From positions 28,622,164-28,686,163 of the forward strand of contig OZ026524.1 in NCBI GenBank assembly GCA_964019695.1: a DNA stretch of 64,000 bases, given 5' to 3'. This document shows positions 5,155 through 63,150 of this stretch, one piece after another; positions within the stretch are counted from its first letter, which is position 1, and the number at the start of each line of letters is the position of its first letter. The notes beneath the pieces were generated by a model. It was not told where the DNA came from. It did not search any database and saw only the letters and a program-made list of their open reading frames with translations. The DNA is from Loripinus fragilis. Its lineage: Eukaryota; Mollusca; Bivalvia; Lucinida; Lucinidae. Both the position numbers and the translations under genes were made by a program.

Positions 5155-5354
5155 CTCTAGAACCTCGATGTTTAATCACTTATCAGACTGCAAGAGGCTC
5201 CATTTTCTCTCCGGATCTTGACTTTGATGGCTTTTATGACCCTATGATTGAATGCGTTTATCGTATATGGGCAGAACTGGATCATCAAGTGGAGCTCCAG
5301 TTTCTAGATATTGACATTGAGGATGACGATAATTGCTTAAAAGACTATATCAAG
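5155..5354 (+). CDS. Exon 1 (of those visible): CUB domain 1, N-terminal half
   Basis: The acceptor is a good pyrimidine tract ending TTTTTGTCTAG. The exon enters in phase 1 and leaves in phase 0 at AAG|GTGAGA. It encodes about 66 residues. The CUB hallmarks are visible in order: RGSIFSP near the start, ECVYRIW (second Cys, followed by the aromatic pair), the LQFLDIDIED strand, and CLKDYIK with the third Cys and the Asp that in many CUB domains helps bind calcium. The second half of the domain is 3.7 kb downstream. The last 12 coding nucleotides, GACTATATCAAG (DYIK), are the source of the minisatellite in the next intron. The phase 1 entry requires an upstream exon, not seen in the first 5 kb. 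Confidence 0.88.
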
Positions 5355-5385
5355 GTGAGAGTAGAGAATTGCAAAACGACTATAT

Positions 5386-5610
5386 ATGAGCCGCGACACG
5401 TGATTTCCAACAATGTGGCACTTTGACACGTGTAGACTCAGACGAACCTGTGCAGCCTCCTTTTTAAGCTTAGAAACTCTAAATGACGTTCAGTCAGTAG
5501 CTGAATACTCAAAGTATATTCAAGCGACTAGCAAAGGCTCTAATCAGGCTGATCTGAGGCTTTGCTGGTCGCACATGCCACATTGTTGGAAATCTCATGT
5601 CATCGCTCAT
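5386..5610. mobile_element. MITE (GATTTCCAACAATGTGG family) inside array A
   Basis: The ends match as inverted repeats of about 37 bp: ATGAGCCGCGACACGTG at left, and the reverse complement of CATGTCATCGCTCAT at right, both followed by GATTTCCAACAATGTGGCA. It separates the first junction copy at exon 1 from the next one at 5611. Relatives lie at 54128-55239 and, as a fragment, at 35490-35575. Confidence 0.75.
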
Positions 5611-7490
5611 ATCAAGGTGAGAGTAGAGAACTGCGAACAAGACTATATCAAGACAGGGATAATTCTATAAGGTGCCCTGTGCGAAAAGGTCCTTAATTTT
5701 CTGAAATGCCATTCTTCTGGTAGCATTTGTATTTTATAAGGTAAGTGTGTGGGGATATTCTACTTTTCGAGTACTGTTCTACGAAATTCCCTAAAAACGC
5801 TCATCATGTCTGAGAGCCAGAATTAATTATCCCTGTCAAGGTGAAAGTAGAGAATTGCAAAAAGACTATATCAAGGTGAAAGTAGAGAATTGCAAAAAAG
5901 AGCATATTAAGATGAGAGTAGAGAATTCCAAAAGATTTTATCAAACTGCGAAAAAGACTATATCAAGGTGACGGTAGAGAGCTGCGAAAAAAACTGTATC
6001 AAGGTGAGAGAGTAGAGAATTGCAAAACAGATTATATCAAGGCGAGAGTAGAGAATTGCTAAAAGATTATATCAAGGCGAGAGTAGAGAATTGCAAAAAC
6101 ACTATACAAAGGTGAGAGTAGAGAATTCCAAAAGATTTTATCAAACTGCGAAAAAAACTATATCAAGGTGAAAATAGAGAGCTGCGGAAAAAAGTATCAA
6201 GGTGAGAGAGTAGAGATTTGCTAAAAGATTATATCAAGGCGAGAGTAGAGAATTGCAAAAAGATTATATCAAGGCGAGAGTAGAGAGTTGCAAAAAGACT
6301 ATACTAAGGTATGAGTAAGTACTTCGATAAAGATTATATCAAGGTGAATGTAGATAATTTGCAAAAATAATATATAAAGGTGAGAGTTAATAATTTGCAA
6401 AAGGATTATTTTATTAAGGTGAGAGTAGAGAATTGTAAAAAAAGACTATCAAGGCGAGAGTAGAGAACTGCAAAAAGACTATATCAAGGCGATAGTAGAG
6501 AACTGCAAAAAGCTTTAACCAAGGTGAGGGTATAGATTTGCAAAATGATAATATCAAGGCGAGAATAGAGAACTACAAAATGATTATATCAAGGCGAGAA
6601 TTGATAACTGCAAAATGATTATATCAAAGCGAGAATAGATAACTGCAAAATGATTATATCAAGGCGAGAATAGATAACTACAAAAAGACTATATCACGGC
6701 GAGAGTAGAGTATAAAAACAATATCAAGATGAGAGTAGAGAACTACAAAAAATACTATATCAAGGTGAGAGTAGAGAATTGCAAAAGACTTCATCAAACT
6801 GGGATAAAAACTATATCGAGGTGAAAGTTGAGTGCTGCAAAAATATAATATTACAGTAAGATGAGCGTAGAAAATTTGCAAAAAGACTATATCAAGGTTA
6901 GAGTAGAGAATTGCAAAAAAAAAAGAGCGTATCAAGGTGAAAGTAGAGAAATGCAAAAAAAAGCGTATCGAGGTGATAGTAGAGAAATGCAAAAAGACAA
7001 TATCAAGGTAAGAGAAGAGAATTGCAAAAAAACTGTATTAAGTTGATAGTAGAGAATTGCAAAAAAGCATATCAAGATGAGAGTAGAGAATTGCAAAAAG
7101 ACAATATCAAGTTGATAGTAGAGAATTGCAAGAAAGAGCATATCAAGATGAGAGTAGAGAATTGCAAAAAGACAATATCAAGTTGATAGTAGAGAATTGC
7201 AAAAAAGAGCATATCAAGATGAGAGTAGAGAATAGCAAAAAGACAATATCAAGTTGATAGTAGAGAATTGCAAGAAAGAGCATATCAAGATGAGAGTAGA
7301 GAATAGCAAAAAGACAATATCAAGTTGATAGTAGAGAATTGCAAAAAAGAGCATATCAAGATGAGAGTAGAGATTAGCAAAAAGACAATATCAAGTTGAT
7401 AGTAGAGAATTGCAAAAAAGAGAATATCAAGGTGAGAGTAGAGAATTGCAAAAAAGAGCATTTCAAGATGAGTAGAGAGAATTGCGTAAA
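5611..7490 (+). repeat. Minisatellite A: copies of the exon 1 splice-donor junction
   Basis: About 45-50 imperfect units of about 35 bp, interrupted by the MITE at 5653-5836. The unit is GACTATATCAAG followed by GTGAGAGTAGAGAATTGC and a short A-run. The first 12 nt equal the last 12 nt of exon 1 (DYIK) and the rest equals the first bases of its intron. From about 7030 to 7440 two variants alternate as a dimer of about 70 bp (GACAATATCAAGTTGATAG and GAGCATATCAAGATGAGAG), a higher-order structure. Many units keep AAG|GTGAGA; others are decayed to GATGAGA or GTTGATA. Confidence 0.92.
5653..5836. mobile_element. MITE with ACAGGGATAATTCT ends and CAAG target duplication
   Basis: The left ACAGGGATAATTCT pairs with the right AGAATTAATTATCCCTGT. 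The element is flanked by CAAG on both sides (5649-5652 and 5837-5840), a 4 bp target duplication at the CAAG of the array unit, which is the copied exon end. It contains a consensus-like donor AAG|GTAAGTG near 5741. Confidence 0.65.
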
Positions 7491-7599
7491 ACGAGTATAA
7501 CACGTCTATATGTGCCATGCGTTAGAATGGGTAACCCTGATTAAGAACACAAAACAATTAGAGCGATATCTAGTTTGACATTCACTGACTCAAAATGGT

Positions 7600-8030
7600 A
7601 ATACATCTAACCAGGAAATGCCACAATCGCACACAATCTGCAGACCAACCCAGCCCGGTACCACGAGGAAGAGACACGGAACACTTGCAGTCACATGACA
7701 CCAAAAGGCAATTAAAGTTAACGTTGCGTTTTCTGTCTTTCGGGAGCTATGTATATAATTTCATCGAGGAAATATTTACAAACTCGGGGAATGTCCTGTG
7801 ACAACCCTTGTTTATCGACGTCTGTTGAATAAATCTCGGACCATCTGCTGAATAACTATTCGGATGACGAAAATGTGCAGAATGCCACCGAAAACTAGAT
7901 TTGATGATATATGATAATCTTAGCGTCATCATAATGACGTCGCGTCTGCCCATAACAACGTCGCGTATGTATGTCAAAAACCTACCGTTTTCATACCGAA
8001 AAATAATATTTCAAAGTAATGATTTTGTCA
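7600..8030. other. No gene recognised
   Basis: Short unexplained sequence after array A. The stretch 7650-7700 shows a weak resemblance (GGAAGAGACACGGAACAC) to the Penelope 3' tail. Nothing else is supported. Confidence 0.3.
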
Positions 8031-8039
8031 TATGATAAA

Positions 8040-8200
8040 TAGAATTTAACATTCGTGCTCTGACGAAAATACATGTGATTAAATTTATTAAATAAACGCG
8101 TTGCAAAAAAAATGGTAAAATCCTTGGTAAGCCTAGTATTTTATCACTTTTCCTCAACTCGTTTGATAAATTAATAAAACATTAGCACTCATGTAAGATC
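8040..8200. mobile_element. Palindromic MITE (relative of 53339-53461)
   Basis: The left ATTCGTGCTC...TTTATTAAATAAACGCGTTGC and the right CAACTCGTTTGATAAATTAAT...AGCACT read as inverted copies with an AT-rich centre. A cleaner relative is at 53339-53461. Confidence 0.5.
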
Positions 8201-8332
8201 CTCTGTCTAACATTCTTGGAACTGTGAAGTATGGGGTAGGATCAGTAGTGTATCATCTCTGAACTGTTCAGCTGGAATTCACCTCTGGGCTTCGATACTT
8301 TTCTGTATACATAAACGATACACTATTCAAAT

Positions 8333-8505
8333 TTTTGGAATGAATATGACATTTATTTTTATATCATGAAGAGAAAAAATGTATTATTTCATTCGTGGCT
8401 TTAGCACTATACATTTTTCTCTTCACTCGATTTCGCAACGAATAAAATATATATTTTTTTTCGCTTCACGAAATGAAATAAATGTGATATTCATGGCAAA
8501 AAATT
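8333..8505. repeat. Imperfect hairpin element
   Basis: GGAATGAATATGACATTTAT at left mirrors ATAAATGTGATATTCAT at right, with an inner inverted GAAGAGAAAAAATGTA / TACATTTTTCTCTTC. Likely a small foldback MITE. Confidence 0.5.
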
Positions 8506-8774
8506 GAATTTTCTTATTATTATATTCAATCTTTGAACCGTTACACAGACAAAGAGCTCTTTTTGTTTATTGGCGTGATCAATGAAACAACTATCGTTGC
8601 GCAACGTATAGCTACAGAAAAGTGCCCTTTTAGGTGTAGTCGTTCCGTAGCAATATGAAAGCGCTACAGAATGCTAAATAAAAGCGCTCGCCTTAATGCA
8701 ACTCTCGCAAAGTTAATAAAAATACAAAAAATCAGATGTGTCTAAAACATTCAATGTCTCCAACTAACCTTATT

Positions 8775-9015
8775 TGGGCCTTGACGCGCAAAACCCTGTC
8801 TTCGGGGGTTTGCGAACAACAAAGGCGCAGACCAGCCTGCGCATCCGCGCAGACTGATCAGCGCCTTTGTTATTTGCTCATTTGAAAGTGTTATACCTAA
8901 ACTTACTTCAAGCGGAATTCCAATTTTCTAGCTAGTCTCTGTAGCTGAGGAGACTGGTTTGAGTCTCACTTTTTTCGGAAAACCCCGGAGACAGGTATTC
9001 CCCCGACGAGGCTCA
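8775..9015. mobile_element. MITE (GGGCCTCGTCGCG-ended family), abutting exon 2
   Basis: The terminal inverted repeats are GGGCCTTGACGCG...CTGTCTTCGGGG at left and the reverse complement of CCCCGGAGACAGG...GACGAGGCTC at right. The core has CTGATCAGCGCCTTTGTT and CTAGCTAGTCTCTGTAGCTGAG. Copies of this family are at 22900-23137, 30899-31124, 46560-46690 and 53818-54048. It ends about 10 bp before the acceptor of exon 2. Confidence 0.75.
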
Positions 9016-9025
9016 TTTGTTTCAG

Positions 9026-9194
9026 GTAACTTCGACGTTTGCAATAGAGCATGAATCGTTTCTTGGGACATTCTGTGGACGCAACAGACCGCTGCCAGAA
9101 CCAATCGTAGCTATGGAAAGAATACTTGTGTACTTTCACACCGATGGTGAGGTCCATGGTCGAGGATTCGCGGCAAAATACCACATAATCAGCG
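9026..9194 (+). CDS. Exon 2: CUB domain 1, C-terminal half
   Basis: The acceptor CATTTGTTTCAG precedes the exon. It enters in phase 0 and exits in phase 1 at a GTTAGT donor. It encodes about 56 residues with the second half of the CUB fold: LGTFCG (fourth Cys), a PLPEPIV loop, the ILVYFHTDG strand with the conserved FxTDG core, and GRGFAAKYHI, which is close to the typical CUB ending GFxAxY. Joined to exon 1 it gives DYIK-VTSTF without a break and completes the four-cysteine pattern. A MITE ends about 10 bp upstream, so the branch point must lie within or at the edge of transposon sequence. Confidence 0.9.
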
Positions 9195-9646
9195 GTTAGT
9201 GTGCCCATTTTCTCCTAATATACTGAGGGACTTTAGAAACGCACCACTATACATTCACTGTTTTTTCCCACAATTCTTATTCAAAGATGTTTCCTTTATC
9301 ATTTTCTATCCCCTTACAAAATGGACCATTATTTGCCATACTTTAGATTTGCTCATGCTGTGCATTCTGACGTAACACCGACGTTAGTGTTTTTCAATAA
9401 CTGTCTTCTGACAAATGTGAGTTCAAATCAATTCGAAATTAAACACTTTGAGCAAGTAGCCAAATGTCTTAACCAATTGAAAAGCACGAACGGTTTTGGA
9501 AATAATCCTTCAATTACACTCCCAGGCAAAACGTGTCTTTGCTTACGTCAGCATATGGTCAGTCTTATTTTTCAAACTGCAATAACAGGCGGATGACGTT
9601 CGCGCATGCAGGGATACTTTTGTCTTTTATGCAACGGATTGATGAG

Positions 9647-10977
9647 TTCGAGGACTGTTCAAATATGAATGCAAGTAATTTCATAACTTTCTTCACATAT
9701 ATGCTACGACAAAATGTCATACATTTCTGGAAAGAACTATTTATCGCCTTTAAAATGGCATCAAACATAAAGGAACACTCACTATATTTCTTGAGTTACA
9801 GATACTTATATAAAGGCCATTCCTGTATACTGAAGTTTTTCTGAAGCAAATTGCAATGCATTTTTTGTACATGTGCGGATATAGTGTCATATCTTTGTAA
9901 GTTTTCGACAAAATGGCACAAAATTCTAGATGCAAGTTTAAGTATCAATACAAAAGTTGCTTGCAGGAAAAAGTTTCTATAATCCTGTGTCAATCTCGAG
10001 TAAACATGCACGTTTGTGACGTCATTAATTTTATGATAAACGTCATTTTGAGTTATCTACTGGTGATGTAATAATGAACATCGCTGTGTCGTTTTCTTTC
10101 CTTTTTGCTGAAAACACACTAAATATGTCACTAGGGGTTTTCAAAACGCGCCGACTCTATTTACAGAGTAATGACATTTTCTATCATTTTTCAAGCATTT
10201 TTCCGCTTCTTAATGACTTGTTTACATTAATTAAAATATATTCAATCTGTCTAGTCCTCAAGACAAGGTGAGTAATTCTTTTGTAAATAATGTTTTTATG
10301 GTCAACCTTAAAGTTTACGTTCAAATTTAGAATAAAGCCGCAATGTTATGACAAAAAAAAATAAGTATAAATTCTATAACCCCTTCACTTAAGGCATTTT
10401 TGACTTAATAAAAATGCTTTCCAGCGTTTTAAAGTTACCCACTATTCATCAATATTTTGTAGCAACAACTCAGTATGAGCGATCAACATATTATGGTTGA
10501 GTTAAAATAAATTTAAATGTTGCTGCGTGCTTTTTGTTAGAGTTAACTTTAACTGAAAACTGTAAGATGGTGTTTTGTTTACCATTTATTAGCAAACCTA
10601 AGGAGACTTTAGTGTAAACGATTTGTTGTGATTTAAAAAAAACATGTCAGATTCTCGCAACTTTCACAGAATCATTATATAAGAATATAGAGATACTTCC
10701 TTAAAAATTTCAAGACATTTCAGCTGTTTATAGAAGAATTATACGCTCGTCTATATCACTGGTATAATTATGTTTGAAGTATTGAGTTTGTTAGTATACT
10801 AACGTGACCCTCATTCAAAGGGCTATAGCTCAATAAGCATGCCGTATTGTTCTTTAGGTCTGGTACCAGTTTAAAGGTGACATATAGTCCTTTATAGAAA
10901 CGTTTACCATTTTGTCGTAGCATATACGGAAAGAAAGTTATGAAGCTACTTGCATTCATATTTGAACAGCCCTCGTA
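9647..10977. mobile_element. Mariner-like non-autonomous element, about 1.33 kb
   Basis: The left end (TTCGAGGACTGTTCAAATATG) and right end (reverse complement TACGAGGGCTGTTCAAATATG) share about 115 bp including GAATGCAAGTA and TATATGCTACGACAAAATG. A terminus of the TACGAGGG...TTCAAA type and TA ends are typical of mariner elements. No transposase motif is seen inside. A third end of the same family begins at 63615. Confidence 0.7.
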
Positions 10978-11084
10978 TCTGGTGGCACTTAAAGATTTTG
11001 ATGATTCCTGTTCCTTAGGAATCATAAACGGGCAATTATGTCAAAAGTTAAATGATGTCATGTAGAGCAGACATGTGGCTTATT

Positions 11085-12345
11085 AATCGTTAATGCTTAT
11101 GCATTATTAATGCATTACTTTTTTTCAGTAATTCAAGGTAATGATTAATTCACCGGTTTTTGAATTACTTTAATGCTAATTCAATGTATTACTTTTGTCA
11201 AAATTCACTGCGTTACTTACATTACTTTGAATTACTGTCTAGCTGAAATTTTGCCATCAATATAGTATACAGACTGCACAATACTGAAGAGAGAAATGAG
11301 ATACATAACAAGAGGACATGTTTCCATTAGTTATTTCAATTCACAGTTTCCTTTTGTTCAACTTCCTTGACAAGACTGTTATTTAACTAAGGAACATGCT
11401 AAATGCACTGTGAAAGTTGTAAAAGGGTTTTGATTATATATCAATAACGTGAAACAGCTTACAGTTACTGGCAATCCCAGAAGAACCTAGAATGGTGAAA
11501 ATGTACCTGGGAAGTGTTGAAATAAAAGATATTCTATCCAACTTTATTTAAATCAATTTTTTACCTATAATTCATTTGAAGGCTAATAAAATTAGCTTTA
11601 AAATCGTGTGAATTTTGTTACAATCCAATATCAAAGAAACAAATGTTTTGATCACAATTAGGGTTATTAATTATCACTTGATTGTCCTGTTCACACATTT
11701 TGACACTTGACTGGCAGTGTGTCTCTTTGGTCAGTTTTGCTACAGGATAGATATAATTGGGTCAACAATATAAGAGACAAAGGATTATGATAAAGCCTGC
11801 GCTTTGTTTATTGAATAATTCAGACAAGAGATATAGGGCAGGAAACTCAAAATGTTTATAATTTTCCTCCCATAAAATATAATTCCATTGGAAAACTTCC
11901 CAGTGGTATAATATACAATGCAATATGATCGCTTAAAAAGCTGGGGTTGCTGCTACATCTGAGTGTTTCCTCAATTTTTCAAAAACTATGAAATTTCAAC
12001 GAATGTTACTGACAAGAATAGGAAATTCACTACCAAAAAAAGCGAAGATATTGTAATTTGTGGCTCATGTGAAATATTTATTTATATCTATAATATCTAT
12101 ATTTGAAATTTACATGTTTACTGTATTTACACATAATTGTTCAATGTATCAAAACTGTTCAAAGGTTACAGTATTGTATGATTCTGTTTCACGTATATGA
12201 AAGTTATGCTAAATTCAATGCATTACCTTCTTAAATAATGCTAATTCAATGCAATACTTTTTCAAAACAAGTAATGGTTATGCTAATTCAATGCCCATTT
12301 TTGGCAGTAATGCTAATTCAATGCATTACTTTCAAAAGGAAATCG
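11085..12345. repeat. Region bounded by GCTAATTCAATGCATTAC motif clusters
   Basis: AATGCTAATTCAATG followed by TATTAC/CATTAC and related motifs occur repeatedly at 11090-11230 and again at 12205-12330, as subterminal repeats would. The 1 kb between is AT-rich and holds nothing I recognise. It may be a non-autonomous DNA element. Confidence 0.35.
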
Positions 12346-12729
12346 CCCAATGTCTGATGTAGACGAAATGAACGTTGCCAGAAGCCTTTAACTTTATGAT
12401 TTGAATTTTTCTTCCTTTTTGCTTTCAAGAGCAAACATCGGTTCCAAAACTTTAATGTGCGCATTATTGAAGGTATTGGTACACTGTGACTTTTAGCATT
12501 AAAATTGCCTCAGAATTATTGCGACAACAACCATAAAACACAGCGTTTCGATTTTTTTAATGAATGCAAGCTAAATGATGGGGCTTGTCAAATTTTTTTT
12601 TATAATCATAATAAAAAATTTTGGCAATTAATTAACATTTTAGCAGGTGGTGCATTTCTAAAGTCCTTCAGTATATATAACTTTTGCTTGCTAGCCGTGA
12701 CTGTTGTCATCTCCCATCTGCCAGTAACG

Positions 12730-12820
12730 TTTTTAAACAGTTTGGACCAAGACCAAGACCATTGTTTCGCCGGTTCTGGTCTGGATCCAAACGGTTTGAC
12801 ACTCTGATAGTGTTTTAGAA
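12730..12820. repeat. Short dispersed repeat GGATCCAAAC-GTTTG
   Basis: The core CTGGATCCAAACGGTTTGACACTCTGATAG-like unit occurs here and again near 16030-16065 and 16588-16620. It is probably the end of a MITE family. Confidence 0.4.
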
Positions 12821-13083
12821 CGAATTTACGGACAAAATATTTTGAAATATTCGACAGACGAAAACTAAACCCATATGATAACATTATTCCCTATGGAATA
12901 TAAATGAATATTATTTGAAAACTAAACCGTTTAATTTACCCAGCAAGACTTAAAGACCTCAATATTTAGACAATAAGATTGATACCACTGCCTGTAGGCT
13001 ATTCCAGGCAGATAAAAGGCTAATCTTTATTAGGTGATTATGACTTCCTTACATGGGGTAATAAAGTGGTCCCATGAAGGGTA

Positions 13084-13958: not shown

Positions 13959-14200
13959 GGTACTTCTGATAAAATATTTATATGTATCTCAGTGAAGGAT
14001 TTTTTATACAGGTAAATCCCACCTTGGGGCCCCTTTAATCTAGTGAGATACTGAAACTGTCCCTTATCAGTTAATCCGCTAATGCCTGTGACCTCTATTG
14101 GACAGAAATATATGCCTTAAAGCGATGGATGTAGGGATGATACCGAAAGTGTAAATGCAATGACAGAAACATGTGTGATAATAATGCATGCATTTTGACA

Positions 14201-18519: not shown

Positions 18520-18704
18520 GTACCACTTGTGGTGAAGACATTCTAAACCAAGAGTCTGGTGAAATAGTGTATCACAATTATTACAGGGATAATTATGTAG
18601 ATTGTGCTTGGACAATTGTTGGTGGCATTGGTAAAATAATTGACGTCAAGATCACAAGAGTTCATATTTCTGAAAGTGTGCACTGTAATTACAATTATTT
18701 AAAG
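18520..18704 (+). CDS. Exon 3: CUB domain 2, N-terminal half
   Basis: The acceptor TTTGTTTTCAG precedes a phase 1 entry (the split glycine codon is completed by the last base of exon 2). The exit is phase 0 at AAG|GTAAAT. The encoded half-domain starts TTCGEDI and contains ESGEIVYHNYYRDNYVDCAW, the classic CUB pattern of first Cys, Gly-rich stretch, Tyr-Asn and Cys-x-Trp. It continues with an IIDVKITRVHI strand and CNYNYLK. The usual acidic residue of the CxYDYL motif is Asn here, so calcium binding at this site may be weaker (inference). The preceding intron is 9.3 kb. Confidence 0.9.
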
Positions 18705-23216: not shown

Positions 23217-23388
23217 GTATTTGATGGTGAAACTATTGATGTATCAACACCACGGGGTGTATTCTGTGGTGAAGTGTACCCACCGGCTATAATATCACAA
23301 GTATCAGTTGGGCTGCTGATTACCTATCATTCTCAACTGGCAGCCGTGGATGAAGGATTTGATATTAAGTTTTACAGACACGAGCAAG
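23217..23388 (+). CDS. Exon 4: CUB domain 2, C-terminal half
   Basis: The acceptor GGATTTTCAG precedes a phase 0 entry; the exit is phase 1 at GTCAGT. The peptide reads VFDGETIDVSTPRGVFCG, with the usual xxDG turn after the strand and the fourth Cys in FCG. It then has PPAIIS, a LLITYHSQ strand and a DEGFDIKFYR ending that fits the CUB C-terminal GFxIxY pattern. The donor lies about 60 bp before a MITE with an internal tandem expansion (23436-23955), which does not resemble the exon sequence. A separate MITE occupies 22900-23137, just upstream. Confidence 0.88.
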
Positions 23389-23435: not shown

Positions 23436-23955
23436 AAGTTTTGTCAGAGTGGGGGACCAACTCAACTTTGACAACTTTAATTTTATTACTTATTTTTTTT
23501 ATTTGAGTTGGGGTCCAACTCAAATTTGATAACTTTAAATTTTTATTCTCATTTTGATTTTATTTGATTTGGAGTCCAACTCAACTTTGACAACTTTTTT
23601 TTTATTTTTTATATCTTTTATTATATTTGAGTTGGGGTCCACCTCAACTTTGACAATTTTTTCTCTATTCTTTATTCTTTTATTTGAGTTGGGGTCCAAC
23701 TCAACTTTGACACCTTTTTTTATTCTTTATTTTTCTATTTGAGTTGGGGTCCAGCTCAACTTTGACAACTTTTATTTTATTCCTTATTTTTTATTTTATT
23801 TGAGTTGGGGCCCAACTCAACTTTTACAACATTTTTTTATTTTTTATTTATTTATTATCAACATTTTTTGATGATGAGAGGAAAGGAAAGAAGATTCAAA
23901 TACCACTAAAAGCTGGCACCATCAGCCCGCAAGCGAAATGTCATTTAAATAGGTG
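23436..23955. mobile_element. GGATCCGCG-family MITE with internal tandem expansion
   Basis: The left edge has GAAAGTTTTGTCAGAGTGGGGG and the right part has CAAATACCACTAAAAGCTGGC followed by CATCAGCCCGCAAGCGAAA. Both pieces occur in the same order in the copy at 33925-34050. Between them the element carries about seven units of about 60 bp (23457-23870), each TTTGAGTTGGGGTCCAACTC followed by AACTTTGACAACTTT and a T-rich run. Confidence 0.6.
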
Positions 23956-25811: not shown

Positions 25812-26020
25812 GGACTGGAGAGCAGTGTGAAAGCATTCGGTATGATCCTGAGCAGACAAGCGGTTTGATCAGAAGCCTTGATGTAGACGGGGATGGAATA
25901 TATGAACAAGACCTTGATTGTACCTGGTCAATTGAATCACCCCCAGACAAAGTTGTCAAACTTGATATCACTGACTTTGAGCTTGAGCCTGATGACTTTT
26001 GTAGATATGACAGTTTAGAG
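25812..26020 (+). CDS. Exon 5: CUB domain 3, N-terminal half
   Basis: The acceptor TCTTATTACAG precedes a phase 1 entry; the exit is phase 0 at GAG|GTACAT, a weaker donor than the others. The peptide contains EQCESIRYDPEQTSGLIRS, DLDCTWSIESP (Cys-x-Trp), a VVKLDITDFELE strand and DDFCRYDSLE. The Cys-x-Tyr-Asp signature is intact, so the calcium-type CUB site looks better preserved here than in CUB2. The next half is 12.5 kb away. A palindromic MITE begins only about 13 bp after the donor. Confidence 0.88.
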
Positions 26021-38489: not shown

Positions 38490-38658
38490 ATATTTGATGG
38501 TAAAAACAGTACTGGTACGTCATTGGGTGTGTACTGCGGGTCATCAGCCTCTATACCCAAGCAGTTTAGATCTTCATCACAGTTTTTACATATTCATCTA
38601 GTCACTGATGGCAGTGGCCACTTTCAAGGAATCTTAGCCCGTTTCTCACATGCTGATA
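38490..38658 (+). CDS. Exon 6: CUB domain 3, C-terminal half
   Basis: The acceptor GTATGTTCTGTAG precedes a phase 0 entry; the exit is phase 1 at GTAAGT, a consensus donor. The exon encodes IFDGKNSTGTSLGVYCG, a proline-lysine loop, FLHIHLVTDGSG (the core FxTDG-like strand) and FQGILARFSH. This completes CUB3 with four cysteines. The exon sits about 26 bp after a MITE (38039-38463). It ends the CUB series; the next exon carries a different domain. Confidence 0.87.
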
Positions 38659-50597: not shown

Positions 50598-50599
50598 AT

Positions 50600-51350: not shown

Positions 51351-51668
51351 AATTGTCTGTGAGACGCTGGCCAACTGGTAACTATGCAATACCGATGTCT
51401 CCATATGGATGTCCAATCAAGCCGGATGACGCCTGGACTCAGAGCAGCCTTAACCTTACATTTGGCCGAGATGAGATCATTCTTTCTCAGATCAACGCCA
51501 AGTCAATGGGACATGACCTATATGTGGGGCCCTATGGGTCTTATAGCTTTCAATTGAATTTCTGCGTAAAAACTGCTACAGAAGCCGAGTCAACAGTTGC
51601 TACCGCAGAGAGAGAATGGCCACCGGGTGATTATGCTGTGTTTGCGATGGGGGAGGATTGTCCAAGCG
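51351..51668 (+). CDS. Exon 7: ApeC-like region, first part
   Basis: The acceptor GCAATTTTATTCAG precedes a phase 1 entry; the exit is phase 1 at GTAAGT. It is the longest exon (318 nt, 106 residues). It carries two related modules, RRWPTGNYAIPMSPYGCP and EWPPGDYAVFAMGEDCPSG, separated by about 70 residues that end in QLNFCVKT. ApeC domains are recalled to start WPxGxYxLPxxxxGCP, to carry an FCxK strand, and then a second WPxGxYCIxxxxxxCPxGF block, so the order and spacing fit. The glycine/asparagine-rich DDEDxNN stretch of typical ApeC between them is missing or diverged. Identification is by motif memory, not a search. Confidence 0.85.
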
Positions 51669-54127: not shown

Positions 54128-55239
54128 GAGCCGCGGCATGAGATTTCCAACAATGTGGTATGTGCGACCAGCAAAGCCTCAGATCAGCCTGCGCATACGC
54201 GCAGTCTGATCAGAGCCTTCGCTAATCGCTTGAATATTTAATGAGTGTTAAGCTACTGACTGAACATCATTTGGAGTTTCTAAGCTTAAAAGGGGGCTAC
54301 ATAGGCTCGTCTGAGTCTGCATTTGTGAAAATGCCACATATACTAGACCAAAAAAGAAACGCCACATACAATAATTAAAAATATTGTGTGTTAAATGAGA
54401 GTGGCAAAATTTTATCATCTGTCTATGCTTTGCTATTTTTTCTTCCGCACATTTTCCTCATAGATTTATTGAGGTGAGTCAATCAAAACCAGTGTTCTGA
54501 CCCATTTTCCATTTTCCTGTTTTTCACGGGCACACTCAGTCCATTCAGATTTACATGTGTTCTAACTACTGAAATCTCTAGTCGAACATCCCAAACGTCT
54601 AAAAACTTTTAAAAACTTTGGAATTTAAGATTACACATTGCTAATTTACGGTGACAAAATTGGCACATGTGAAACGTTAACGTGCAATAGGAATGTTAAA
54701 AGCTAACCTGACGCCATTGATAGAAGCCAACCTATTTCGGTGTCATGTTAGGACGATTGGATGTCTTAAGAATTGTTTCTAACAAATTAGGACAACGTCA
54801 CACCGCCTGCGTCCAGGGCATCGGCGTGTGTCGACGTGACGTCAAAATCGAGCCGCCCAGACGTATCATTTGTGCAATCGATTTAATCTGGAGTCAGTCA
54901 CAGCAAGAACACCCCAAGGAACTCATAATCCAAAATTCAGGGCTGAAACTGTGAGAAATCATTTAAAGAGATTTGTTTAAGACCCCCACCTCCCAACGTT
55001 TGACGGAACCTAACTTTGGTGCAGTATTTACGTCAAATTAAGGAACCCGCGGTAGTACCAACGTCTTAATGAATTGAGAAACTGGCAAATAGCGTTCTCT
55101 AGCACTATTTTGCTCTAATTTTTCTAGTTACTGCATGTTTTTTTTAAATGAGATACATAACTGGTACAGATAGCACTTTTCATACATAGCGGCGTTTCTT
55201 TTTTGGCCTAGTATAGTTGGAAATCACGTGTCACGGCTC
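54128..55239. mobile_element. GATTTCCAACAATGTGG-family MITE, split
   Basis: The left tip GAGCCGCGGCATGAGATTTC and the right tip GGAAATCACGTGTCACGGCTC are inverted. The body is 54128-54342 and 55214-55239. The core includes CTGCGCATACGCGCAGTCTGATCA and AGTTTCTAAGCTTAAAAGG. One frame reads LEPRHEISNNVVCATSKASD, a MITE translation that I recall turning up in predicted invertebrate proteins. Confidence 0.7.
54343..55211. mobile_element. TA-flanked element with CTAGxCCAAAAAAGAAACGCC ends
   Basis: 869 bp with TA on each side. The inverted ends are CTAGACCAAAAAAGAAACGC and CTAGGCCAAAAAAGAAACGC. It is inserted in the MITE at 54128-55239. No transposase frame; an ORF at 54745-54954 has no recognised domain. 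Confidence 0.75.
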
Positions 55240-55347
55240 AATTATTTTCTTGCTTCGAGTTCATAATATCCATATTTTATATTTGAATTTGAAACCAGAA
55301 ATTGGTCTAATAGGTGTGATTTTAAGGCTTTCTTCATTAATTTTCAG

Positions 55348-55583
55348 GGTTTATATGGGACTTGAAAATATTCAAAACCAGCATTCCAATCGCCTACACG
55401 TCATTTGGAGACACTCCAATTAGGTTGTTCGATGATGAGACAAAAGGTGATCCGTATGCTTCCTATATAGTCAAGCGAGATGTGACTGTCCATGCTTGTG
55501 TGAAAGATGTTTCAGCGGCGACAGTAACTAACCAGCATGATTTTCGCCTGCCTTACACTGTATTAGCACCATCCATATTACAA
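55348..55583 (+). CDS. Exon 8: ApeC-like region, second part
   Basis: The acceptor TTAATTTTCAG precedes a phase 1 entry; the exit is phase 0 at CAA|GTGAGT. It encodes about 78 residues: FIWDLKIFKTSIPIAY, then RLFDDETKGDPYASYIVKR, DVTVHACVKD and FRLPYTVLAPSILQ. The CPSG-F junction with exon 7, the FDDE acidic stretch, the TVxACxK strand with a single Cys, and the LPxxxxxPSxL ending parallel the second half of ApeC, where a WDDED stretch, a YCCR strand and LPxxxPFxL occur in the same order. The donor opens directly into minisatellite B. The intron just upstream of the acceptor is a 95 bp duplicated stretch. Confidence 0.83.
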
Positions 55584-56735
55584 GTGAGTAGTTGTTTGCT
55601 CATTAAACACCAGCTATTTTACTAGTTAGTAGTTGCTTGCTCATTGATCACTAGCTATTTTACTAGTGAGTAGTTACTTTCTCATTAATCACCTGCTAGT
55701 TTACTAGTGAGTAGTTGCTTGCTCATTAACCACCTGCTATTTTACTAGTGATTAGTTACTTTCTCATTAACCACCTGCTAGTTTACTAGTGAGTAGTTAC
55801 TTGCTCATTAACCACCTGCTATTTTACTAGTGATTAGTTACTTTCTCATTAACCACCTGCTAGTTTACTAGTGAGTAGTTACTTGCTCATTAATCACCTG
55901 CTATTTTACTAGTTAGTAGTTGCTTGCTCATTAATCACCTGCTAGTTTACTAGTGAGTAGTTGCTTGCTCATTAATCACTAGCTATTTTACAAGTTAGTA
56001 GTTGCTTGCTCATTAATCACCTGCTATTTTACTAGTTAGTAGTTGTTTGCTCATTAATCACCTGCTAGTTTACTAGTGAGAAGTTGCTAGCTCATTAAAC
56101 ACCAGCTGATTTACTAGTGAGTAGTTGCTTGCTCATTAATCACCAGCTATTTTACTAGTGAGTAGTTGCTAGCTCATTAATCACCTGCTATTTTACTAGT
56201 TAGTAGTTGCTTGCTCATTAATCACCTGCTATTTTACTAGTGAGTAGTTGCTTGCTCATTAATCACCTGCTATTTTACTAGTGAGAAGTTGCTAGCTAAT
56301 CAATCACCAACTATTTTACTAGTGAGTAGTTGCTTGCTCATTAAACACCAGCTGATTTACTAGTGAGAAGTTGCTAGCTAATCAATCACCAACTATTTTA
56401 CTAGTGAGTAGTTGTTTGCTCATTAAACACCAGCTGATTTACTAGTGAGAAGTTGCTAGCTAATCAATCACCAACTATTTTACTAGTGAGTAGTTGTTTG
56501 CTCATTAAACACCAGCTGATTTACTAGTGAGAAGTTGCTAGCTCATTAAACACCAGCTGATTTACTAGTGAGTAGTTGCTTGCTCATTAATCACCAGCTA
56601 TTTTACTAGTGAAAAGTTGCTAGCTAATTAATCACCAACTATTTTACTAGTGAGTAGTTACTAGCTCATTAATCACCAGCTATTTACTAGTGAGTTGTTG
56701 TTTGCTTATTAATCAGCAGCTATTTTACTAGTGAT
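55584..56735 (+). repeat. Minisatellite B: starts exactly at the exon 8 donor
   Basis: About 28 units of 41 bp: GTGAGTAGTTGCTTGCTCAT, TAATCACCTGC, TATTTTACTA. The first unit is the intron start itself (CAA|GTGAGTAGTTG). The unit's last bases, ATTTTACTA, match 7 of 9 exon-end bases, ATATTACAA. Most units keep GTGAGTAG; variants include TTAGTAG, TGATTAG and TGAGAAG. Between about 56290 and 56520 variants alternate in a higher-order block of about 82 bp (GAGAAGTTGCTAGCTAATCA with GAGTAGTTGTTTGCTCATTA). Confidence 0.93.
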
Positions 56736-56745
56736 TAGTAGTTTG

Positions 56746-57454
56746 GTAAAAAAAATATTTTTTTACAAAATGACAGCTATGAGAACTTAGACAATTTTTA
56801 GTATATGCATAGATAGTGTCTTCAAGGGCCGATCAACTTCTACCACAGCTTTTGATGGAGCAAGTTGGTACTTTGCCTATACAATGTAGACGCATTGAAC
56901 ATATGCATGAAGGAGTATGGTTCAAAAAAATTAATGGTACTGTCAACATGATGGATGATTGTACTTCCACTTTTTGTTTAGACTAGCGTTTAATGGGATT
57001 TGGCCACAAATTGGCTGGAGAAGTGATATGCCTGAAGAATTGAATTGGTCCATATAGGCTTATGGAGCATCTGTCAAGCAATTTGGATGACAATTCCTTG
57101 TTATGCTAAGGCTGCCACTGATGAAATAATAGTACTTTTAAAGCTCTTAATATACTACTATTGCAGGTAGCAAGTTTTATACTTTCAATTGGAGTAGCAC
57201 CCACTACGCAGATTACGCACGTGCTTCATAAAATAGTAACAGTCAAGGGAGGTTACTAAAAGTGATAAAAGTGATTTCCATGCTATAAGGAACTGCTCAT
57301 AAAGGAAAGAATCCGCTCCCTCTGGGAACAAACTCTTTCCTTTAAGAGAAGTTCCAATTTTAAAAAGGCACGCAATTGAAGGGAAACATTGCTTGATCCA
57401 GTAGTCCCCCTTTGACGTGCGTTACTTTCTCAGTGTTCTGGCTTCGCCATTGCG
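56746..57454. other. Intron 8 sequence, no gene recognised
   Basis: AT-rich DNA between array B and the next repeats. 57290-57370 has an imperfect palindrome (AAGGAACTGCTCATAAAGGAAAG against CTTTCCTTTAAGAGAAGTTCC). Confidence 0.4.
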
Positions 57455-57498
57455 TGAACAATAAATGCGCTGATCAGACTTTACAGGCTGGTCTGCAT

Positions 57499-57992
57499 CA
57501 TAATATGTTATCATGCAACAAGCTCAAGGTTTCCCACGATGTGGCCCATATAATCACATTCTGCTATTGTTAAATCATATACATGTATCCAGATAAGTAT
57601 TTTTTATTAAAAGTGTACTTATTTTCTTATCCATCAATTTAAACATGTGATTTGGGTGCTCAAAAGATCCGTCTCACTAAGACGGTTCTTTTGAGTACCC
57701 ACAACATATGTTTTGGATAATAAATAAGAAAAAATAGTTTTCCTGGTCTTCACCTTAATTTGTTATCATGCAAGGAGGTGAAGGTTTCTCGCAATATGGC
57801 CCATATAATCACATTATGCTACATGTATAATTTATACATAGATCCAGATAAGGAATTTATGAGCATAAAATTGTAATTATTTTCTTACCCATCAATTTAA
57901 ACATGTGTTTTGGGTCCCCAAAAGAACCGTCGCATTCAGACGGTTCTTTTGAGTACCCACAACATATGTTTTGGATGAGAAATAAAGAAAAT
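57499..57992 (+). repeat. 247 bp tandem duplication carrying the AAAAGAACCGTCTC hairpin
   Basis: Two units (57499-57745 and 57746-57992) share GTTATCATGCAA, GGCCCATATAATCACATT, ATCCAGATAAG, ATCAATTTAAACATGTG, the GACGGTTCTTTTGAGTACCC stem and CACAACATATGTTTTGGAT. The first part derives from the GGGCCTCGTCGCG MITE family (57455-57550). Confidence 0.8.
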
Positions 57993-58029
57993 AGTTTTCC
58001 AATACGCACACTCATCTGAAGGCCTGGAC

Positions 58030-58200
58030 CTGGTTGTACGAAGCTCTATTAAATTTAATCATGGATTAAGCGTTAATCAATCATTTAAATCTTAACGATG
58101 GATTAACTAATTGATGTATTTAAACGTGTTGTACGAAGCCTCATTAAACGGTTGATTAGTTAATTGACCTTTAATCGAGGGTTCGTAATTAATTTCAATA
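58030..58200. mobile_element. Short TTAATCxATGG-repeat element end
   Basis: CCTGGTTGTACGAAG occurs with a second GTTGTACGAAGCC 100 bp on, plus several TTAATC / GATTAA motifs. It resembles the subterminal structure at 28527-28720 and 36005-36212. Confidence 0.4.
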
Positions 58201-58251
58201 GAAATCATAAAACCAGTTTCCCATAATTCAGCCATGTAAACTAAACGCCGC

Positions 58252-58679
58252 AATATCACACTGGTAAATGTATACGTCGATTTGGTGGTATTTACGCGTA
58301 TTGCCGGTACTTCATAGACCGGAAGTGGTAGATATTGGTGTAATTACTATAAAGAAAAACATCCCATATGCCTAAAGGACTATAGAATTAGATAGTTTTT
58401 AAGTATTTGGCATGCACATGGCGATTTATGTAAGCATTTAGGAATAGATTCGAGTACCGATCTGGATGATCGGTACTCGAATCTATTCCTAAATGCTTAC
58501 ATAAATAGCCATGCACATACTGAATACTTAAAAATGGTTGAAGTCTATAGTCCTTTAGGCATATGGCATGTTTTTCTATATAGTATTAACACCAATATCT
58601 ACCACTTCCGGTCTATGAAGTACCGGCAATACGCGTAAATACCACCAAATCGACGTATACATTTACCAGTGTGAATATT
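58252..58679. repeat. 428 bp near-perfect palindrome
   Basis: The arms of about 205 bp fold around a centre near 58465 (GTACCGATCTGGATGATCGGTAC). Outer tips AATATCACACTGG and CCAGTGTGAATATT. Arm blocks such as TTTACGCGTATTGCCGGTAC, CATAGACCGGAAGTGGTAGA and TTATGTAAGCATTTAGGAAT are identical on both sides. A foldback MITE is the simplest explanation. Confidence 0.9.
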
Positions 58680-58848
58680 AGAAAAGAGAAATTCTCGAGT
58701 CAAAACTTACAAATTAAGTTTAGGACGTAAAGAAAGAGGAGGAGATGGTCGATGTTACCCGTGGATCGTTTATTTATACTGCATTAGTTAAATTAATAGA
58801 CAATGGATGGCGAGTATCGATAAGGGAGACCTCATTGGTACTTTATTC

Positions 58849-59349
58849 CACTGTAGTCATACCATTACGGCAATTTGGGTCTCGTCACTTATTCCGGTGT
58901 TAAGGTAACTTTCTCATCACGTTCAATTTCTTCATTTAATCACAGATAAACGCCCCAAAATGCTTGGCTTCTGATTATTTTTTGTTCATCAAATTCCAAT
59001 GTATCTTAGCTTTAAAATTATATGAAAACCTTAACGTTTGATGTCTAGGCATGAAATCACTTATTACGGTTTCGTCATCGTGGACAATTAATCAATGACG
59101 AAACCGTATAATTATGACTAAACCGTAATTGACATTTTTTTTAATATAATTGTAGAAAAAACACATTTAAAATCTGATTTTATCTCCGTTTTTGCAAATC
59201 AACACAGAGGCTGTTACCTAGACGATGCAATCTCGAAGCAAACATATTCGAAAGTTCTCATTTTTGTCAGCCTTTATTTGAAGGTAATTTTACTATAACA
59301 CCGGAGTAGGTGACGAGACCCAAATTGCCGTAGTGGAATGACTACAGTG
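58849..59349. mobile_element. TIR element, 501 bp
   Basis: CACTGTAGTCATACCATTAC, GGCAATTTGGGTCTCGTCAC and CCGGTGTTA at left mirror TAACACCGG, GTGACGAGACCCAAATTGCC and GTGGAATGACTACAGTG at right. The inside pairs further (GGTTTCGTCATCGTGGACAA...TCAATGACGAAACCGTAT). A 21 bp piece of the end occurs at 29708-29730. Confidence 0.85.
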
Positions 59350-60246
59350 TTATTCATAGACTTTCCTGTAACGTTCATTTCGCAATAAAGGTTAATTTTC
59401 TATTAAACACAGTGAGAGTGTAAAGATGTACCAAGTATCCAGTTATCACGTCATGTCTACTCTATGATTGTTTTATTGACAGAGTCTGTTGAAATATCTG
59501 GTAAGCGTCGCCAACGACAATGTAACAATGACGTCATTGTCTATGTCGAGCTCTTTTGTTGCTATTTTCATCACGCCAGTTTTATCTGACTCACTGGGGC
59601 ACCTGGTACACTCCCCAGGGGGGCGGGGGGGGGGGGTATCTGATATTTTCATATATACGTAGGCTCGGGTAAAATATTTTTTGGGTGCTTGAAATTCCTG
59701 ATATTTTTTGGGGTGAAAGTTAGATGCTGGGCGCGAGCCTACGCATGCAGAAAAAAATAGAGACCCCCCCTCCCCGGGAACACTCAGGCTTCGCAGAAAT
59801 CAGGCGTTTGAAAAAGGCGAACATGTGCGCGATTAAAATCAAGAACATGAGCCCATGGAGGCCCTTAACACCCAAAATAACGACACACTCAGGTCGAAAA
59901 CGGAGACGACCAAATGACACTGTTACCACCGAATTCTGCATCCCTAACCAACCCCATGCCTCTCCTCAAAATCAGCTCTATGATATGGAAATGAAAAAAG
60001 AACGCAACCGTAACATCGGGTTTTCATTCGAAATAGTTAAACAATAAGCCTAGAACAAAACGAACGTCAGATGCTACCCCTCAGTAAACAGTATTGGATC
60101 TATTCAGACCCAACAAAAGTTGGAACTGAAACGGCCCAAATCAGTTTTAAACTATAAAACAAAACGGAATACAAAACAAACACCCTGGAACATGATCAAA
60201 CATGATCAGACTGACAAAATTAGGGACTGCGCCTGATTCACGGTGT
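59350..60246. other. Intron 8 sequence with G-rich tract, no gene recognised
   Basis: 59618-59636 is a G-run interrupted by C. ORFs at 59724-60047 and its opposite strand are not gene-like. No exon seen. Confidence 0.4.
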
Positions 60247-60440
60247 TTGTTTTGTTTGTTTGATTAGATTCTTTACGTTCCAGTCAACAATCTTTCAGTT
60301 ACGTAGGGACGGGTCTTCCTGGGCTGAACCAGTACTATGCTAGGATTAATGTGTCTTGCTCAATGACACGACGCAGTGACGCCGGTGAGGCTCGGAACCG
60401 TGGCCCTTTGGTATCGAGTTCGCAGTGTTTGAATACAAAA
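60247..60440 (-). mobile_element. SINE family 1 (copy 5)
   Basis: Reverse reading: tail TTTGTTTGTTTGATTAGATT, body CTTTACGTTCCAGTCAACAA, GACGGGTCTTCCTGGGCTGA, ATGCTAGGATTAATGTG, CTTGCTCAATGACACGACGC, AGTGACGCCGGTGAGGCTCG (reversed B box). Confidence 0.75.
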
Positions 60441-61380
60441 TGCGGTCAAAGCAAACGCTTTGGAACCTGGCCTGGCCGGAGACCAGATTGGGCCGGGTAC
60501 GGGTCCAGACTTTTTGGCCAAACACTAAGCTGCCACCCATTTGTATCCGAGCGAAAATATGGGCATATGGGTGTCAGAAAAGTTTGGCCATTCAAATGCC
60601 AAAACTCAGAAAGCGGGTAATTCAAAAACTTTCTTTATTAAAAAAGGGGGGTTTATACCTGGCGGCGCTGAAAAAGGGGGGTATTCGGGCGCATATCCGT
60701 ACTATGTCTAACATAGGGAGTTACCCCCCGAGAATGTCGTAAGGGGCGATCAAAAGTTATGCAAACGTGCGCCTTACAATGCCTCCTTTAAAGTTAAGCA
60801 AGACTTATGTTAAGTATTGATATTTCAACATGATATATTAAATGCTAAAAATTGCCTGATCGATGTGGGATATCATTGTGCTCTTCAGAAAAATTAAAAC
60901 TATTTTGATTTTGATCAGTTTTAAACGTTATTTTTCGCATCCTGAAAAATCAATGCTGAACTCTAATGAGGCATTGTAATTCCGGGCCCAGATCTTGTAA
61001 TATTGTCGCATAGAAGTTCAAAATAGGCATAAGTGACTGTACCGACGTAACATTTCTACAGATGTAATGATTTTATAACTAACTCAAAAATATCAGTATT
61101 TGATACATGTATACAGCAAGTCGGTATGTGAAATTACAGGACTTGTCACCTCTGACATACAGCTGCATCTGAGCCGATCTTTCTGTTGGCATGCTGGTCT
61201 GGGTTACGGTACAAGAAGCTCGCCACAGATGAAGACAAGTAACATGAATTTAACAAAGTAACTTCGGCGACGAAGCGATGGGGTGCGGAGGAGGGGGTTA
61301 TAAATGTCAATTATGTTAACAATGCCTGTGTCAGAATGTTATCTTTTTATTATATGCTAAAAACCTCATAGTCTTTTACT
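60441..61380. other. Intron 8 sequence, no gene recognised
   Basis: No supported exon or repeat. ORFs at 60351-60742 run out of the SINE and look random. Confidence 0.35.
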
Positions 61381-61608
61381 ACTGTCGTGCCAACCAAGAG
61401 TGACAGTGACGTAATACCGTGTTTACAATATCTAGGTTACACACTAACGTATACACTTCACTTGAGCTAACGCCAATCGATAGATCACTGGTGTATTAAG
61501 CCTATCCTGCGGATAGGATTAATACACAAGTGATCTGTCGATTCTAAGTCCCTGATAACTTTGTAAACAAAACATGGCGTCACTGTCACTCTTGCCTGGC
61601 AGGACAGT
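61381..61608. mobile_element. Hairpin MITE, ACTGTCGTGCCAACC ends (copy 1), 39 bp before exon 9
   Basis: ACTGTCGTGCCAACCAAGAG and the reverse complement of CTCTTGCCTGGCAGGACAGT are the ends. The centre AGATCACTGGTGTATTAAGC / GGATTAATACACAAGTGATC folds around CCTATCCTGCGGATAGG. Confidence 0.85.
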
Positions 61609-61647
61609 ACTTTCATAATACAGCTGTATTTCTTTCAAATTTAATAG

Positions 61648-61783
61648 GAGGTGGGAGACAGGGATACTGCTATGAACGTGAGTTCAAACATGGACGTCTT
61701 TCCTGAAGATTTTCTGTTAGGATTTGCTGATGGTGCAGAGGTGCCATTGGATTGGTTAAGTTTTAGAACATATGTGCCAATAG
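61648..61783 (+). CDS. Exon 9: ApeC-like region, third part (divergent)
   Basis: The acceptor is CAAATTTAATAG. The exon enters in phase 0, as exon 8 requires, and leaves in phase 1 at ATAG|GTAAATG. It encodes about 45 residues: EVGDRDTAMNVSSNMDVFPE, DFLLGFADGAEVPLDW and LSFRTYVPI. The open frame, both splice sites and the phases support it as a real exon. It fits the place of the last ApeC segment, but the cysteine expected there is absent. The exon is bracketed by two copies of one MITE family, ending 39 bp upstream and starting 12 bp downstream. Its last 25 or more nucleotides are copied in minisatellite C. Further exons should lie beyond the window. Confidence 0.7.
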
Positions 61784-61794
61784 GTAAATGAGCC

Positions 61795-62022
61795 ACTGTC
61801 GTGCCAGCCAAGAGTGACAGCGACGCCATGTTGTGTTTACAAAGTTATCAGGGACTTAGAATCGACAGATCACTTGTGTATTAATCCTATCCGTGGGATA
61901 GGATTAATACACAAGTGATCTTTCGATTCACATTAGCTCAAGAGGAGTGTACACATTATTTATTTACTTAACAATTATAAACAAAACATGATGTCACTAT
62001 CACTCTTGGCTGGCAGAACAGT
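61795..62022. mobile_element. Hairpin MITE, same family (copy 2), 12 bp after exon 9
   Basis: Ends ACTGTCGTGCCAGCCAAGAG and reverse complement of CTCTTGGCTGGCAGAACAGT. The same GGGATAGGATTAATACAC centre is present. It separates the real junction of exon 9 from the rest of array C. Confidence 0.85.
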
Positions 62023-63150
62023 GAACGACTGTTTCAGGTTAAGAACATATGTACCAAAAGGTAAATGAGTTAATAGGTTGTTTCAGTTTAAAAACATATG
62101 TACCAAAAGGTTAATGAGTTAATCGATTATTTCAGTTTAAGGACATATGTACCAAAAGGTAAATGAGCTAATCGACTGTTTCAGTTTAATTAAGGAATGA
62201 ATTAAATTTTGGAATGTTCATGGCATCATGAGCTATCGAACATATGTACTAAAAGATAAATGGGTTGTAAGACTGGTTCAGTTACAGAAAATATATTATG
62301 TACCAAAAGGTACATGAGTCATTTGACTTGTTCAGTTAAAGAACATAATGTATCAAAACTTAAAGCTGCATACTCTGAAACTATGAACATTTTTCGAAAA
62401 AAAATATTTTCTTTTTAAATCATTTGCAAAAGTAGAATAAAGTTATATTGTCACAATAAATCTTATTTCTACAGTTAAAAACTGCATGAAAAAGTGAATT
62501 ATCTTATAAAAACAGGTGTATTTTCTCTTGTTTGTAATTATTTGCGTCCCTCCAATAATTCTAGACAGTTAATTTTTAACATAAATGCTGTTGTTTTGGC
62601 ACTAATAATTTGTTAATTATTACGAAAAAGGTAAAATGTATACCTGAATCTTAGTATTTTTACTGTGTTTTTAAAAAATAGAAACATTATTTTTAAAATG
62701 AAAATATCAAAAGTTACAGATTATGTAGCTTTAAAGGGGCCATTAAATTGTACTGATTATGTGCCAGAACATATACCAAATGATTAATGAACAATTGGAC
62801 TGGTTTGGCTTCAGAACATATAGATATGCACCAAAAGGTAAATAAGCCATCCTATTAGTTTAGTTACAGAATTTATTATGTACCAAAACGTGAATGAGCT
62901 GTTGGACTGGGCCAGTTATATAATATATGTACCAGTGGGTAAATGAGCTATTTGAATGATGCAGTAAATGAACATATGTACCAAAAGGTATATGAGTCAT
63001 TTGACTGGTTCAGTTACAGAACATATTAATGCATCAAAATTGAAATGAGCTGTTAGACTGAATCAGTATTAGAACATATAAACATTATACCAAGTGCTAA
63101 ATAATGCATTAGAGTGTTTCCATTTCAGAATATATGTACAAGAACAAATT
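62023..63150 (+). repeat. Minisatellite C: copies of the exon 9 splice-donor junction
   Basis: About 14-15 units of about 49 bp, interrupted by the MITE at 62360-62734. The unit holds AGAACATATGTACCAAAAG, which matches the last bases of exon 9 (AGAACATATGTGCCAATAG), then GTAAATGAG of the intron and a GACTGGTTCAGTT-like spacer. Early units (62030-62190) are close to each other; later ones decay. Many spacers contain TTTCAG or TTCAG just before the exon-like part. Confidence 0.9.
62360..62734. mobile_element. MITE with TTAAAGCTGCATA ends (copy 2), inside array C
   Basis: TTAAAGCTGCATACTCTGAA at left mirrors TTACAGATTATGTAGCTTTAA at right. The inside (TTATTTGCGTCCCTCCAATA) is the reverse of the copy at 52124-52498. 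Confidence 0.85.

Follow-up and report, generated by a model that had tools for sequence, protein, structure and literature searches.

Why should three unrelated minisatellites in a single gene all begin at the end of an exon? The question is raised by a 64,000-nucleotide stretch of the genome of the lucinid bivalve Loripinus fragilis (assembly GCA_964019695.1, contig OZ026524.1, positions 28,622,164 to 28,686,163 of the forward strand; hereafter the window), which is part of the contig that we call C13 in a genome of 1.987 Gb and 685 contigs. It carries a long gene in which CUB half-exons precede an ApeC region, and in this gene the introns behind exons 1, 8 and 9 open into tandem arrays (A, B and C, respectively). 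Each array is built from copies of the exon-intron junction at which it starts, and comparable arrays are found at donors and at acceptors of other exons in the genome. It is likely that such minisatellites, known as mirages, are born across exon-intron junctions and are pinned there by selection, and that the splice site is not the cause.

The arrays were located by Tandem Repeats Finder (TRF) and by direct matching, and the exon share of each unit was read by eye. For each junction a 30-base word (15 bases of exon and 15 of intron) was taken, and a recurrence was scored where at least 22 of the 30 bases matched within 3 kb. The words of the exon 1, exon 8 and exon 9 donors recurred downstream 44, 21 and 7 times, respectively, and never upstream. 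No recurrence was observed at the five other donors and all eight acceptors of the same run, nor at either end of exon 2 and of the two upstream CUB exons, e-1 and e0. The copy counts in Table 1, which include the exon's own junction and total 87, were obtained with looser thresholds (19, 19 and 18 of 30 for A, B and C). Thus the units are the gene's own exon-intron junctions, and since they differ in sequence and length the three arrays had three separate births. On these points the initial annotation proved accurate: it had described units of about 35, 41 and 49 bp made of the 3′ end of the exon plus the start of the intron, three separate origins, and about 90 junction copies. Its count of three array-bearing donors out of nine stands for the window and becomes three out of 11 when the two upstream exons are added; none of the 11 acceptors known in the gene carries an array.

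The initial annotation also had the arrays begin 0 to about 260 bp beyond their donors. Gaps do follow donors A and C, and they are insertions of elements with inverted repeats (E1 and E2 in array A, E3 in array C), so that each of the arrays in fact begins directly at its donor. In the sequences searched (the fetched regions and the sampled loci), E1 gave 21 BLAST pieces, the longer of which were 78-88% identical and, among the matches listed, included loci on C15 and C16; no further copy of E2 was found among the same sequences. Further copies of E3 lie at 61381-61608 and on C20 (L076). Arrays A and C thus owe their detached appearance to later insertions of these elements.

On the same contig, 53 Mb away, is a second copy of the region (C13:82086001-82186000; L009-L018). 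Its exons are 94-99.6% identical to those of the window and long flanks align, and the two copies differ by large insertions and deletions; the second may be a paralogous duplicate or a misplaced haplotype. All three arrays are present in both copies of the locus, and hence their births most simply predate the split. The junction copies of A, B and C number 47, 29 and 11 at the window locus versus 103, 30 and 11 at the second copy, that is, clearly different for A, barely different for B and the same for C. Array A has therefore more than doubled or halved since the two copies split. At the second locus the final 127 bp of exon 1, together with the junction, recur three more times, plus one shorter piece; these recurrences are spaced 0.8-1.2 kb apart, within larger repeats that include inserted elements. 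A DNA search of the whole genome (2 Gb), which skips very common words and scores the best candidates only, found exon plus array matches for junctions A and B solely at this gene and its second copy. With junction C the search listed just the two exon copies and none of the known array C units, its sensitivity being too low. A dispersed satellite or transposon array as the source of units A and B was rejected, because no unrelated loci were found in this search.

The comparison set outside the window gene comprised 100 CUB and ApeC exon ends, hand-picked from match lists. It was made of 20 ApeC relatives, each with ∼450 bp upstream and 550 bp downstream, 40 fragments from CUB first-half exons (each with the final 60 bp of the match and the following 400 bp) and 20 fragments from CUB exon starts; arrays interrupted by insertions beyond ∼400 bp would escape this sample. 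Junction arrays were found at the donors of three CUB first-half exons (L053, 45-bp unit, 7.1 copies; L080, 117-bp unit, 3.9 copies; L084, 55-bp unit, 8.3 copies) and at the acceptors of two CUB exon starts (L091, 42-bp unit, 9.6 copies; L102, 129-bp unit, 3.6 copies). Among the ApeC relatives there was one acceptor-side array (L050, 119-bp unit, 4.5 copies) and no donor-side array in the 20 exons, in 16 of which a donor-like site could be identified close to where the match ended. Straddling arrays therefore occupy three of 60 donors versus three of 40 acceptors outside the window gene (Fisher P 0.68), and six of 71 versus three of 51 when the window gene is included (P 0.73). Leaving aside the window gene, which was chosen for its donors, nothing distinguishes donors from acceptors.

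These results can be brought together as follows. In a duplication-prone genome a short tandem duplication would arise anywhere. Where it happened to straddle the edge of an exon, the exon-proximal copy would retain the coding sequence and a working splice site, presumably the one that is used, and the remaining copies would fall into the intron, where they would be free to multiply, shrink, decay and take transposon insertions; slippage or unequal exchange may drive their growth. A straddling array could not extend into the exon, and hence its visible end would always lie at the junction, at donors and acceptors alike. Observed parts of this explanation are the junction origin of the units, the change in copy number, the decay of copied donors in array A (see below) and the presence of arrays at both exon ends elsewhere. 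In the window, 0.66% of 3199 random 30-mers had at least three downstream and no upstream recurrences, which for three of eight donors gives P ∼1.5e-5; this value is post hoc and counts array edges, and it overstates the case because pinning itself predicts array ends at the junction.

The same kind of test was applied at random positions of one 184-kb region from which arrays A-C and a downstream satellite had been removed. Positive (downstream) positions numbered 61 of 2110 in the region (2.9%), 37 of 1000 in the gene span (3.7%) and 24 of 1110 outside the span (2.2%). For the six array-bearing junctions among the 100 sampled, P was 0.075 relative to the region and 0.17 relative to the gene span. 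The data are compatible with junctions being hit no more often than other positions.

Several observations weigh against this explanation. The background is regional, not whole-genome, and relative to the positions outside the gene span the six in 100 reaches P 0.024. This rate is about twice the background in a small sample, and a true junction excess could be hidden; a modest excess of arrays at junctions is possible, not established. In the window gene all three arrays are at donors and none at acceptors. Its three array-bearing junctions of 22 give P 0.026 (region), 0.048 (gene span) or 0.012 (outside the span), and P 0.14 at the six-in-100 rate of the other exons; its three donors of 11 give P 0.0035, 0.007 or 0.0016, respectively, and P 0.015 at the three-in-60 rate of the other exons, all of these values being post hoc because the gene was picked for its arrays. 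TRF placed no repeat in the 1 kb upstream of the gene's 11 acceptors (P ∼0.005), and of random intron points 39% have one within that distance; over this first kilobase, the sequence before acceptors looks repeat-poor in this gene. Furthermore, five of the six outside cases fall in one multi-CUB gene on C15, at five of its 23 junctions (P 0.0005-0.0014 relative to the region and the gene span), versus one of 77 in the other sampled exons (P 0.002). This clumping is the strongest result against plain chance, unless the C15 gene is repeat-rich throughout. The C15 locus (C15:35094434-35238921, minus strand) is a dense run of CUB half-exons, apparently a single gene, which we take to be cubilin-like.

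The clumping favours a different view, that certain genes have exon edges with an inherent tendency to tandem duplication, donors and acceptors alike. The rates of the C15 gene and of the window gene both contrast with one in 77 elsewhere and with the 2.9% of random positions, and in the 23 C15 fragments all five TRF arrays with at least 3.5 copies straddle the junction. However, exons were hand-picked and genes unevenly sampled, most cases come from a single gene, the window gene was chosen because of its arrays, and the C15 figure covers exon ends. We consider this explanation possible, although we rather doubt it.

The initial annotation had looked to the 5′ splice site itself, with R-loops, U1 binding or repair at exon ends making donors hotspots of duplication. 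In the window gene the contrast between three of 11 donors and none of 11 acceptors (P 0.0035-0.007 for the donors) speaks for such a process, and other tandem repeats begin 4, 58 and 134 bp past the donors of e0, exon 4 and e-1. Strand skew of the R-loop type was present at array A (GC skew 0.278 and AT skew 0.324 in the 2-kb window 6001-8000) but absent at B and C, whose windows had a GC skew of -0.05 to 0.10. Since arrays elsewhere are found at acceptors as well as at donors, in the proportions given above, the 5′ splice site is not supported as the target, and a donor-specific process is very unlikely.

The same annotation had suggested selection for extra donors, whereby arrays would be kept because the copies serve as decoys, alternative donors or sources of protein repeats. 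The GT dinucleotide is kept in all 29 copies of array B and in nine of 11 in array C, but array A retains it in just 21 of 47 copies, which contradicts the suggestion, and its two GT columns (0.68 and 0.77) rank below most other columns in conservation. When donors were scored against the consensus with position weights, the functional donor of array B outscored all 28 copies, and 10 of 46 copies in A and three of 10 in C scored at least as high as the functional donor. We conclude that: i) copied donors decay in array A, and ii) the arrays show no sign of selection for extra donors. The unit lengths of 35, 41 and 49 bp are, in addition, not multiples of three. A case of another kind is L053 (C15:35155082-35155542, minus strand), whose 45-bp array keeps the reading frame open (it repeats SIEDHSTCIYDYIEV) and has six copies that differ just at the first base; if an inner donor were used, a CUB protein would gain 15-residue repeats. 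This array is in favour of useful copies; as a general account of the arrays, the idea is highly improbable.

The exon part of array A encodes NCLKDYIK, the CUB core at the site where CUB introns sit. The end of exon 1 thus corresponds to the core C..DY[IL]./V (the slash marks the junction), which also ends exons 3 and 5; 37 of the 40 sampled CUB exon ends are array-free, and most of these 37 show the core. Array A was therefore copied from the exon, and the exon is the older of the two, because the conserved core also ends array-free CUB exons. The possibility that the intron itself was made from the tandem array was rejected for A, since CUB introns occupy the same position in array-free exons. 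By analogy, exons 8 and 9 probably preceded arrays B and C. The opposite order, with arrays first and exons lengthened into them by a shift of the donor to an array unit, draws on B and C, as a search with exons 7-9 matched exons 8 and 9 solely at the two copies of this locus and a protein search with exon 8 was empty, but the exon end is the conserved CUB core at A, L053, L080 and L084, L102 is at a CUB second half and L050 at an ApeC start, and this order is hardly credible.

The features of the locus are compiled in Table 1. The exon model, with exons 1-9 between 5155 and 61783, is predicted from homology and open frames. Pfam recognised CUB above cut-off in exons 1, 3, 5 and 6, and ApeC in exon 7; the CUB match of exon 4 was below the cut-off (E 0.0036), and exons 2, e-1 and e0 were located by tblastn with CUB halves. 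A protein search with exons 7-9 returned three matches, each with 40-46% query coverage and 97-99% identity. Exon 8 alone returned no match in the protein search, and no match was obtained in a search of solved structures.

Table 1. Arrays, inserted elements and predicted exons of the window gene (window positions; a slash marks the exon-intron junction).
Feature	Positions	Strand	Description	Evidence
Array A	5331..7485	+	35-bp unit, 24 bp exon + 11-12 bp intron; 47 junction copies; split by two inserted elements	
Array B	55567..56739	+	41-bp unit, 17 bp exon + 24 bp intron; 29 junction copies	
Array C	61750..63026	+	49-bp unit, ~34 bp exon + 14-15 bp intron; 11 degenerate junction copies, two blocks	
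Element E1	5384..5612	.	37-bp terminal inverted repeats, within array A	
Element E2	5652..5837	.	13-bp inverted ends, within array A	
Element E3	61794..62023	.	49-bp terminal inverted repeats, within array C	
Exon 1	5155..5354	+	CUB domain first half, ends CLKDYIK, donor at 5355	Pfam CUB 9.8e-12; AAG/GTGAGA
Exon 2	9026..9194	+	Second half of the CUB domain of exon 1; array-free at both ends	tblastn, junction-word test
Exon 3	18520..18704	+	CUB first half; array-free	Pfam 7.7e-6
Exon 4	23217..23388	+	CUB second half; unrelated 61-bp array begins 58 bp past donor	Below Pfam cut-off
Exon 5	25812..26020	+	CUB first half; array-free	Pfam 1.1e-10
Exon 6	38491..38658	+	CUB second half; array-free	Pfam 3e-4
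Exon 7	51351..51668	+	ApeC domain start; array-free	Pfam 5.1e-12
Exon 8	55349..55583	+	Ends PSILQ, donor at 55584	Open frame, CAA/GTGAGT, same protein in second copy
Exon 9	61649..61783	+	Ends FRTYVPI, donor at 61784	Open frame, TAG/GTAAAT

Other repeats lie in and around the gene. The array behind exon 4 (23447-23856) was considered as a fourth junction array and rejected, despite its nearness to the donor, as the junction word does not recur; its 61-bp unit carries a near-palindromic core, GAGTTGGGGTCCAACTC. An array at -1895 to -1250 relative to window base 1, with a 73-bp unit containing CAG/GTAAAT, is donor-like, and no adjoining exon was recognised. At the donor of e0 (-6660 relative to window base 1, 6.7 kb upstream), a long TC/TCTG microsatellite begins 4 bp into the intron. 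The satellite that was removed from the background occupies the downstream flank (125140-134000 relative to window base 1, continuing into L030) and consists of 158-bp units, with 56 copies to the end of L028; beyond L028, 95% of the positions tested in the next 10 kb are still repetitive.

Arrays of this type have been encountered before, and Canestro et al. 2002 is said to be the defining paper of mirages. The initial annotation knew of no established name for them. In amphioxus, tandem repeats spanning exon-intron boundaries are named mirages, and the reports describe them at both 5′ and 3′ boundaries (PMC3087553, PMC3902484). They vary in copy number, and regular splicing is seemingly undisturbed, as judged there from Adh3 data and from reverse transcription-polymerase chain reaction on globins; TnC and PGBD5 are also among the reported cases (PMC3087553, PMC3902484). 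As in those accounts, the unit of the bivalve arrays spans the edge of a coding exon and the splice site, that edge retains the gene's intact copy, arrays occur at 5′ as well as 3′ boundaries, and the copy number differs between copies of a locus. The unit lengths are of the same order as those given for amphioxus (10-72 bp in Adh3 and 150-160 bp in globins). Unlike the amphioxus cases described, the present ones are in a different, 2-Gb genome, with three in one gene and inserted elements inside the arrays, and they reach 103 junction copies versus 3 and 6 units in two amphioxus BflGb6 haplotypes. Regular splicing was checked in amphioxus; the arrays presented here are described from DNA sequence.

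Two further systems invite comparison. Human internal tandem repeats in genes of segmental duplications, with an average unit of 30 bp, are likewise described as minisatellite expansions, sometimes at exon-intron boundaries, but they alter exons or form new introns, whereas the arrays studied here extend pre-existing introns (De Grassi and Ciccarelli 2009, PMC2812944). The Rogers model derives introns from tandemly duplicated AG/GT sites (Lehmann et al. 2010, PMC2891723). The introns presented there share with our arrays a tandem duplication that crosses a splice motif; unlike in that model, the CUB introns look older than the arrays, their position being shared by array-free CUB exons. No mollusc case was present among the titles listed in literature searches on minisatellites at splice sites, which is weak evidence of absence. 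On introns from AG/GT tandem duplication, Zhuo et al. 2007 and Gao and Lynch 2009 are reportedly cited. The arrays of the window gene are mirages in another genome; they exceed the amphioxus globin case in copy number, and mirages are not donor-specific here.

Minisatellites that straddle junctions show how an intron can lengthen and gain decoy splice sites while the exon stays unharmed. If about six in 100 exon ends carry such arrays, a rate taken from a small and uneven sample, the genome would offer a very large number of natural experiments on spliceosomal choice between dozens of near-identical sites, and the arrays would also be raw material for new introns. Repeats that end at exons need not imply the splicing machinery as their cause: in our sample such a cause need not follow, because an array born across a junction is visible only as one that ends there. 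Should the exon edges of particular genes be prone to duplication after all, mirages would be a gene-specific mutational habit that steadily offers new splice sites, and in-frame units such as that of the 45-bp C15 array would give variation in the length of protein repeats.

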